In this document: in pieces, positions 27,286 through 30,414 of the stretch
Position numbering within the stretch: the stretch's first letter is position 1
Layout of the letters: each line of letters starts with the position of its first letter
DNA from: Emcibacter sp.
Lineage (GTDB): Bacteria; Pseudomonadota; Alphaproteobacteria; Sphingomonadales; Emcibacteraceae
DNA length: 64,000 nt
Reading direction: 5' to 3'
Assembly (NCBI GenBank): GCA_021741205.1
Contig: JAIOYI010000005.1
Location: forward strand, 62,001-126,000
The notes under the pieces: model-generated
The model's database searches: none
The model's input: the letters and a program-made list of their open reading frames with translations, nothing else
What the model was told of the DNA's origin: nothing
Translations under genes and position numbers: made by a program

Positions 27286-28548
27286 ATGCGAGAGCAAATC
27301 ATTGCCTCATTAGATATCGGTACAAGTAAAATTTGCTGTTTTATAGCAAGGGTGAGTGACAATAACCCGCCTCGGGTCATTGGTATTGGCCATCAAATAT
27401 CTAAAGGATTAAAGTCTGGCACGGTTGTGGATATGGAAGAAACAGAAACCTCAATCCGTGCGGCTGTGGATGCAGCCGAAAGAATGGCGGGAGGCAGCCC
27501 AATACATGATGTTTATGTTAATATCTCGGCAGGACAACCTCAGTCCAAAATTTTTTCGGTCGAAGTTGATGTGGCAGGTCAAGAAATCAGCCAGCATGAT
27601 ATAGACCATGTTCTTTTAGCAGGTCAGAAGGACTTGAAGAATGAGGAACGCTTTATTATCCATTCTCGCCCTATTAGTTTTAGTATCGATGGTGTGGCGG
27701 GCGCGAAAAAACCATTGGGGATGTTTGGCGAAAGACTGGGGGTAGAAATTCATCTCTCTAGTGTCGCTTTAAGTCCGCTAAAGAATATCCAAACCTGTCT
27801 TAATCGGTGTCATTTGAATTTGAAGGGCGTGGCGTTGACGCCTTATGTTTCGGGACTTGCGACACTTGTGGCGGATGAGAGGGAAATGGGCAGTATCTGT
27901 GTTGATATGGGGGGAGGTCTGACGAGCATTGCAGCCTTTAGGAACAATGAACTTGTTTTTGGTGATATTTTGCAAATTGGCGGCAATCACGTCACCCGTG
28001 ATATAGCCCAAGGTCTTTCGGTTCCAGAAGGGAAGGCGGAAAGACTAAAAATTTTATATGGGGATTGTTTAATAGGGCGTGTGCCCGTTCGGGATCAAAT
28101 TGATATTGTACAAACTGGCGAAGACGGTCATGAGCACCCCATAACGATCCCAAGATCAATGTTAACCGCCATCATCAGCCCACGGGTTGAAGAAATTCTG
28201 GAATTACTTCGGGATAGAATTATTGAAACAGGTCTTGCTGATATGGTTGGGCGGCGTATTATTTTTACGGGCGGAGCAAGTCAAATTTCAGGATTAGAGG
28301 AATTGGCTAAGAAAATATTTTCAGTTAAATCCTGTTCCGCTCTTCAGGGGAATTTTCATATAAGGCTCGGTCGACCCATCAGTGTGGATGGTTTAGCCGA
28401 TGCCACAGGTGGGCCGGTATTTTCAACCTGTGCCGGATTGCTGAATTTTGCATTATCGAAGCAGTGGGATATTCATTCGATTGCATCTGATCAGTCGAAA
28501 ATAAATTTTTTTTCACGCATAGGGGGATGGATTAAGGAAAATTTCTAA
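27286..28548 (+). CDS. ftsA: Cell division protein FtsA
   Basis: ASLDIGTSKICCFIA, VDMGGGLTSIA, FTGGASQISGLEEL; C-terminal amphipathic GGWIKENF. Confidence 0.96.
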   Translation: MREQIIASLDIGTSKICCFIARVSDNNPPRVIGIGHQISKGLKSGTVVDMEETETSIRAAVDAAERMAGGSPIHDVYVNISAGQPQSKIFSVEVDVAGQEISQHDIDHVLLAGQKDLKNEERFIIHSRPISFSIDGVAGAKKPLGMFGERLGVEIHLSSVALSPLKNIQTCLNRCHLNLKGVALTPYVSGLATLVADEREMGSICVDMGGGLTSIAAFRNNELVFGDILQIGGNHVTRDIAQGLSVPEGKAERLKILYGDCLIGRVPVRDQIDIVQTGEDGHEHPITIPRSMLTAIISPRVEEILELLRDRIIETGLADMVGRRIIFTGGASQISGLEELAKKIFSVKSCSALQGNFHIRLGRPISVDGLADATGGPVFSTCAGLLNFALSKQWDIHSIASDQSKINFFSRIGGWIKENF

Positions 28549-28569
28549 CTATTCTGGCCTAAAATACCT

Positions 28570-28678
28570 AAAAACGACTCGAAATTGCAAAAAAACGACT
28601 CGGAGATCATTTTTTTAAAGACAGAGCGAATCACATGAGGTAAATTATAGTTAACATATTGTTACAACATATTGAATC
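28570..28678. promoter_or_regulatory. Candidate cell-cycle control region upstream of ftsZ: four GANTC sites and a TTAA-N7-TTAC CtrA-like site
   Basis: GANTC at 28576, 28597, 28628, 28674; AAAAACGACTCG duplicated at 28570 and 28591; TTAACATATTGTTAC at 28651-28665. Confidence 0.5.
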
Positions 28679-28710
28679 ATATATGAGCACTGGTCCAGCG
28701 GGAGCATCCT

Positions 28711-30414
28711 ATGACTATAGAATTTACAATGACTGAATTAACAGAACTGACACCAAGAATTACGGTATTTGGGGTCGGTGGTGCGGGCGGCAATGCCGTC
28801 AACAATATGATCAATACTGGTCTTGAAGGTGTGGATTTTGTTGTTGCTAATACGGATGCTCAGGCTCTTGCCTATTCGAAGGCGGAAAAGAAAATTCAAC
28901 TGGGTGCCAGTTTGACGCAAGGACTTGGTGCGGGGGCAAGGCCTGAAGTAGGACGCGCTGCAGCTGAAGAGACCATTGAATTGATCCGTGAACATCTTCG
29001 GGGCAGCCATATGGTCTTTATCACAGCCGGCATGGGCGGCGGTACGGGAACGGGTGCGGCGCCGATCATTGCTAAAACCGCCCGTGAAGAAGGTATTCTG
29101 ACGGTGGGTGTTATCACCAAACCTTTTCAGTTCGAGGGTAACCGCCGCATGTTGCTTGCTGATGAGGGAATTAAGGAACTGTCACAATATGTGGATACGC
29201 TCATTATTATTCCTAATCAAAATCTTTTCCGGATTGCCAATGAAAGAACCACTTTTGCGGATGCGTTTGCTATGGCGGATGAAGTTCTGCACTCTGGCGT
29301 ACGGGGAATTACGGATTTGATGGTCTTGCCAGGTCTTGTTAATCTTGATTTTGCTGACGTTCGTACTGTGATGAGCGAGATGGGCAAGGCTATGATGGGA
29401 ACGGGCGAAGCAGAAGGCGAAAACCGTGCTTTGGAAGCCGCAGAAGCCGCAATCTCCAATCCGCTTTTGGATGAGGTATCTATGAAGGGTGCTAATGGCG
29501 TGCTTATTAATATCACAGGGGGAATGGATTTGACCCTGTTTGAGGTGGATGAGGCGGCCAATCGTATCCGTAGTGAAGTTAACCCAGAAGCAAATATTTT
29601 GGTGGGTTCCGCCCTAAATCCCGATCTGAACGGTAAAATGCGGGTATCGGTTGTGGCGACGGGCATTGAATCGGGCAGCAATATAGGTATGGAACCTCGC
29701 AAAACTTATCGTTTTGAAACAAAATCCGAAATTGTGACAAAACAAAAATCTGAGGAGCCATCAGATGGGGGATATGAAAGCGTAGAAGGCAGTCAAACAG
29801 ATATTAACCCCACGATGTCTGATGATGATCTTGAGACAACTTTGATTTTGACCGATGAGGTTCAGGAAGAAGATGCCATCATAAAGACGGATGTGACCAT
29901 AAGCGATATTCAGAGAGAGACGGAACATCTTCTGGCACAACTGGCCGATGGTATTGTTCAAAGAGAGGAAAACTCCGAGATAAAAACCGATGTGCCTGAG
30001 TTAACGGCAAGTCGCAGAGAGCCCTTTATTGCTGCGGCTCCGGTCATGCCTGAAAAGCGCATGGAACCCTTAATAGACCGTGCGGACCCCTTTGCTGAGG
30101 CGGCCATGATGAATGGTTCCAAAGAAGACAAAGTGCCAGAGAGAAAGGGATTAATGGGTTTTTTTGGAAATCGCCGAAAGGCGGCCCTTAAGAAACAGCC
30201 TGTTTCGCTTCAGGCTGATCTGCTCAGCCCCGAAATGAATGAACCTGTTATTAGGCAAAATCCAATGTTAAATAATGGGCGGGAAAATGATAATAAAGAT
30301 AATATTGCTGAGCAACCAATAGAAGCTGTCAGGGATGAGACGCCGAAACTTTCTGCCCAAAAAGAGGATGATCACCTTGAAATTCCAGCTTTCCTTAGAC
30401 GGCAGGCAAATTAA
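28711..30414 (+). CDS. ftsZ: Cell division protein FtsZ
   Basis: [25 protein letters not shown], long linker, C-terminal [10 protein letters not shown]. Confidence 0.98.

Follow-up and report, generated by a model that had tools for sequence, protein, structure and literature searches.

Our analysis has revealed a real, conserved and family-wide region of multiple GANTC sites directly before ftsZ. It occurs once per genome, keeps its sites in register and surrounds a promoter-like pair of hexamers, and the genome encodes the regulators that would act on it. Based on homology and conservation, we predict that the region is an ftsZ promoter activated by CcrM and GcrA and repressed by CtrA, a multi-site variant of the one-site ftsZ promoter of Caulobacter, and we hold this explanation to be probable.

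An array of GANTC sites between ftsA and ftsZ

The source genome comprises 2.57 Mb in 18 contigs, and the stretch analysed here, referred to as the window, is 64 kb of one of them (G000:C18:62001-126000). Judged by FtsA, its nearest named relatives are genomes from metagenomes that carry the label Emcibacter or Emcibacteraceae (NCBI: Alphaproteobacteria, Emcibacterales). In 21 of the 23 genome contigs with an ftsA homologue, ftsZ lies directly downstream, and in the window the two genes are separated by a gap of 162 bp (Table 1). The original prediction had placed four GANTC sites in this gap, and all four coordinates were right. The exact duplication that it described was also borne out: AAAAACGACTCG occupies 28570-28581 and again 28591-28602, 21 bp apart, within a 21-bp tandem repeat of 81% identity. 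Sites 1, 2 and 3 are separated by 21 and 31 bp, close to whole helical turns. The two 21-bp units and a T-tract form a series of A/T tracts with a period of about 20-21 bp, whose centres lie at 28572, 28592 and 28613.

Table 1. Features of the ftsA-ftsZ region, in coordinates of the window
Feature	Position	Strand	Description
ftsA	27286..28548	+	ORF of 420 aa; homologues of 40-79% identity in 23 genome contigs
Two 21-bp units	28561..28602	+	Each ends in A-tract plus CGACTCG
GANTC site 1	28576..28580		CGACTCG, bottom strand CGAGTCG = YGAKTCG; about -77 from predicted start
GANTC site 2	28597..28601		CGACTCG; 21 bp from site 1; about -56
T7 tract	28610..28616	+	Just upstream of predicted -35; UP-element-like; family-conserved, putative role
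Predicted -35 hexamer	28618..28623	+	AAGACA; TAGACA in several relatives; NAGACA in 28/28 family genomes
GANTC site 3	28628..28632		CGAATCA, bottom strand TGATTCG = YGAKTCG; in -35/-10 spacer, about -25
Predicted -10 hexamer	28641..28646	+	TAAATT; 17 bp from -35; TANNNT at 17 bp in 28/28
CtrA-like box	28651..28665	+	TTAACATATTGTTAC; TTAA-N7-TTAC; over predicted start, about -2 to +13
GANTC site 4	28674..28678		TGAATCA; about +22, predicted 5' leader; no YGAKTCG match
ftsZ	28711..30414	+	ORF of 567 aa; N-terminal part 78-95% identical to relatives' ftsZ

Density of GANTC in the genome

In Alphaproteobacteria with CcrM, GANTC is under-used overall and favoured between genes (PMC3973325). The window has 73 GANTC, compared with 222 in dinucleotide shuffles. 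A background sample of 464 kb, made up of 400 kb of two contigs and the 64-kb window, has 1.28 per kb, which is 0.31-0.37 of expectation and corresponds to an about threefold depletion. Four sites in 103 bp are therefore a strong outlier, and the density scan proposed with the original prediction, run on this sample, identified the region as such. The prediction had assumed 0.4 sites per 103 bp by chance, a value too high for this GANTC-depleted genome; the enrichment itself is real and stronger than claimed. Non-ORF DNA has 1.86 GANTC per kb, and the probability of at least four in 103 bp there is about 5e-5. The ftsA-ftsZ gap is the sole stretch of the 464-kb sample with four GANTC in 110 bp or less; outside the sample, the ccrM promoter has five in 92 bp. 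A rate-only Poisson estimate gives about one such cluster per genome, and the case is thus carried by conservation and not by density. Chance density as an explanation was ruled out by conservation.

Conservation of the array within the family

Alignment across relatives, which had been suggested as a check, showed that the sites are conserved in register family-wide. GANTC is retained at sites 1-4 in 24/27, 26/27, 27/27 and 26/27 aligned family genomes, with inter-site spacings of 21, 30-31 and 45-47 bp, and relatives have between three and seven GANTC in the gap, at fixed offsets. The G, A, T and C of sites 1 and 2 persist but their central N varies; at site 1 the N is C, A or T across the family. 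Counted by parsimony on a tree of ftsZ plus ftsA, changes average 0.50 per column for the G/A/T/C of the sites, 1.25 for the N and 2.77 for the rest of the core. This pattern of retention, column changes and spacing indicates that selection acts on the CcrM motif and its geometry. The second A-tract and the T-tract likewise keep their spacing in nearly all family members.

Some members have further sites. Three from the window's genus carry an additional GANTC 21 bp upstream of site 1, and genus g5 usually has a fifth GANTC, the N of which is C, T or G. In the most divergent genus, g3 (L058), the 21/31/46 spacing is kept and both upstream sites have turned into GAATC. L057 (G021) retains site 3 as GATTC. 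Its array and promoter are found about 215-70 bp before the ftsZ start, about 75 bp farther upstream than in relatives. The family maximum is seven GANTC, found 169-18 bp upstream of ftsZ in L051 (G019).

Genomes were searched with a sequence-only profile of the region (R1). It matched 29 of 33 family genomes, including 23/23 near-complete ones and all 5 genera, each time with a single genuine copy, located in front of ftsZ. The only extra match, a candidate second copy in G030 (L059), lies inside an ORF and was rejected as spurious. The profile had no match in 268 genomes from the order's other families; the larger of the searches was run with stricter filters.

Predicted core promoter and CtrA-like box

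The GANTC array encircles a conserved, sigma70-like promoter pair, [AT]AGACA-N17-TANNNT. All 28 family genomes share the same order: NAGACA, four bases, the GANTC of site 3, eight bases and TANNNT. In L057 the -10 is a perfect TATAAT. The window's pair, AAGACA-N17-TAAATT, scores 8/12 against the consensus, and a standard promoter scan did not list it. From the hexamers, we predict a transcription start near 28653. These observations support the earlier suggestion of an ftsZ-specific promoter, in the form of a predicted and conserved sigma70-like pair. Site 3 lies between -35 and -10, within about 40 bp of the predicted start. In one orientation (bottom strand), sites 1-3 fit the GcrA-type motif YGAKTCG, and site 4 does not. 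This form makes up 6.7% of GANTC in the genome sample, and the probability of at least three in four is about 0.001. The match is not decisive, since Brevundimonas GcrA does not prefer the extended motif (PMC7987155).

The fit to TTAA-N7-TTAC claimed for 28651-28665 held. This pattern occurs 11 times in 464 kb, with about 0.004 expected in the ftsA-ftsZ gap. The box reads TTAA-N7-TTAC or -TAAC in the window's genus and TTAA-N7-TTAA in g5; in the three most divergent genera (g2-g4) the second half is degenerate and only the first half is present. It begins just after the -10 and overlaps the predicted start, not the -10. In Caulobacter, CtrA-repressor sites sit over the -10 (PMC4287350). Because the box overlaps the predicted start, repression by CtrA appears likelier than activation.

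Two other candidate elements were considered for the gap. A DnaA box like the one known from Caulobacter was looked for, and none within two mismatches was found in the window's ftsA-ftsZ gap. A leader RNA or riboswitch was rejected: RNAalifold gave -0.68 kcal/mol with four pairs and no covariation, and Rfam had nothing near threshold in the gap.

Regulator genes and the rest of the circuit

The check for ccrM and ctrA proposed with the original prediction found both in the genome. CcrM (376 aa, RAMA domain) matches PDB 6pbd with an E-value of 2.8e-157, nearly end to end, and GcrA (147 aa) matches PDB 7ye1 in both conserved domains (E 1.8e-29); these are Caulobacter structures, and both proteins fall below the curated NCBIfam equivalog cut-offs. 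CtrA (233 aa) scores 410.6 bits against NCBIfam NF045991 (cut-off 350), and SciP (DUF1153) is also encoded.

Upstream of ccrM (L003:361-660, G000:C6) there are six GANTC in 300 bp. The ccrM genes of relatives (L127-L151) usually have three to eight in 200 bp upstream, in a conserved array in which GANTC follows one or two bases after TTGAC, a -35-like hexamer. No conserved GANTC was found upstream of mipZ in 30 family genomes; of the two genes with CGACTC in their Caulobacter promoters, the element is conserved here before ftsZ but not before mipZ. In this genome, ctrA (L029) has no GANTC in 300 bp upstream, and gcrA has none close upstream. According to a survey, every putative ctrA promoter in Caulobacterales and Sphingomonadales has at least one GANTC (PMC8116508). 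The ctrA upstream region of this genome contains several TTAA/GTTAAC boxes, as if autoregulated. Links of CcrM to mipZ and, in this genome, to ctrA appear to be absent.

On a scale from gidB (origin proxy) to the far side, computed with rounded genome sizes for three single-contig relatives, ftsZ lies at roughly 30-55% and ccrM at roughly 75-85%. Since ftsZ is nearer to gidB, it would be hemimethylated between its own replication and CcrM production.

GANTC clusters before ftsZ outside the family

We also examined 200 bp upstream of 45 ftsZ loci outside the family, 16 from the same order and 29 from other families of the class. No GANTC was present in 24 of these and a single one in 14 (38/45 with none or one). 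Three loci have four to seven GANTC in unrelated layouts: L071, from another family of the order, and L168 and L174, from other families of the class. Their clusters look to be of independent origin. The seven GANTC of L071 span 137-43 bp before ftsZ, and some of them fall within the end of ftsA. Clusters of this kind are rare, and because the three layouts are unrelated they probably arose more than once. As these three lineages differ in layout, the exact geometry may not be essential.

Proposed mechanism and alternatives

Taken together, these analyses suggest that the 162-bp gap would be a dedicated ftsZ promoter. Its weak sigma70-type core, with a start near 28653, would have a CcrM site in the spacer, two upstream CcrM sites on roughly the same helix face next to the phased A/T tracts, and a fourth in the leader. 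CcrM would methylate the sites, and GcrA on the sigma70 holoenzyme would read the methylated YGAKTCG-type sites and activate the promoter. GcrA, which the original prediction did not name, is the likely reader. Passage of the replication fork would leave the array hemimethylated and its output lowered or retimed until CcrM re-methylates it, and active CtrA, bound at the CtrA-like box across the start, would turn the promoter off. Several sites may act cooperatively. More tentatively, it is possible that a helically phased, multi-site array gives a sharper replication-coupled ftsZ switch, with several GANTC re-methylated before GcrA-RNA polymerase fires fully. If so, ftsZ and ccrM itself would be the main targets of CcrM control in this clade, in place of ctrA and mipZ.

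The CtrA-like box could be read in another way. If the region held two promoters, P1 and P2, the box would be the -35 of P2 and the site of its activation, site 4 would lie in the P2 spacer, and CtrA would swap P1 for P2. This is what happens at Caulobacter ctrA, where CtrA switches transcription from P1 to P2, and Caulobacter promoters with a full CtrA site that begins near -35 are activated through it (PMC4287350). Site 4 is kept in 26/27 genomes, and the sole promoter-scan match in the region has TTAACA as its -35. However, the family alignments have no consistent -10 16-18 bp past the second CtrA half-site, where the hexamer is without its last T in the window's genus and varies in g5, and P2 would leave a very short leader ahead of the ribosome-binding site. 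We therefore consider a second promoter unlikely.

The remaining alternatives concern the array as a whole. The two ACGACTCG repeats are two helical turns apart and share more than GANTC (A5-7 plus CGACTCG), as they would if they and the A-tracts bound another DNA-binding protein and the GANTC match were incidental. Such a protein would have to account for flanks and a central base that vary while GANTC persists, for sites 3 and 4, which are the best conserved yet have no flank in common with sites 1 and 2, and for the depletion of GANTC elsewhere; we find it improbable. The phased A/T tracts, the dense sites and the position of site 4 downstream of the predicted start would also suit a mainly non-transcriptional array, such as one that marks hemimethylation locally, loads or titrates CcrM, or curves the DNA. 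Its fusion with a conserved promoter-like pair close to ftsZ, and its absence elsewhere in the genomes searched, make such a role very improbable.

Under the methylated-promoter explanation, production of a division protein is probably tied to chromosome copying and methylation in these marine bacteria, since an array of methylation sites in the promoter has been kept family-wide. Control of ftsZ by CcrM has been shown in Caulobacter (one CGACTC site), proposed for Rhodobacterales and judged unlikely in Rhizobiales, and our data provide strong sequence evidence for the CcrM-ftsZ link, in a stricter form, in another alphaproteobacterial family. The conserved spacing and site number raise the question of whether the number of sites sets the sharpness or timing of a methylation-dependent promoter.

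Comparison with known systems

The general idea of a GcrA-regulated ftsZ is not new, since a bioinformatic survey of the class, with Emcibacter congregatus among its species, had judged GcrA regulation of ftsZ likely in some of them (PMC7987155). A multi-site ftsZ array was not described in the literature that we searched. The closest system is the ftsZ promoter of Caulobacter crescentus (Gonzalez and Collier 2013, PMC3708114), where methylation by CcrM of a CGACTC element activates ftsZ and mipZ, and where point changes in the element lower activity, less so when GANTC stays. In Caulobacter, ftsZ is regulated by CtrA as well as by CcrM, in agreement with the original prediction. Both organisms have CGACTC with a CcrM site upstream of ftsZ, and both encode CcrM and GcrA. 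In contrast to the single Caulobacter site, the fixed array of the family described here holds three to seven GANTC (the window's has four), with two CGACTC copies 21 bp apart and one GANTC inside the predicted spacer; the window's gap yielded no DnaA box, and mipZ lacks a conserved GANTC.

Caulobacter promoters of one timing class are distinguished by a GANTC in the -35/-10 spacer (PMC4287350). The ftsZ region shares with GcrA/sigma70 methylated promoters the spacer GANTC, the YGAKTCG-type flanks and a GcrA with both conserved domains, as secondary sources describe them (PMC7987155, PMC7403470, PMC4287350); it differs in having several phased sites, and its GcrA binding is a prediction. Caulobacter ctrA P1, with GANTC at -28 and a CtrA half-site at -14 (PMC4287350), likewise pairs a spacer methylation site with a CtrA site close to the start, but the gene here is ftsZ, and ctrA of this genome is without upstream GANTC. 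Within the family itself, the ccrM promoter resembles that of ftsZ in its conserved GANTC array beside a -35-like hexamer, and differs in spacing, in sequence and in having the better -35.
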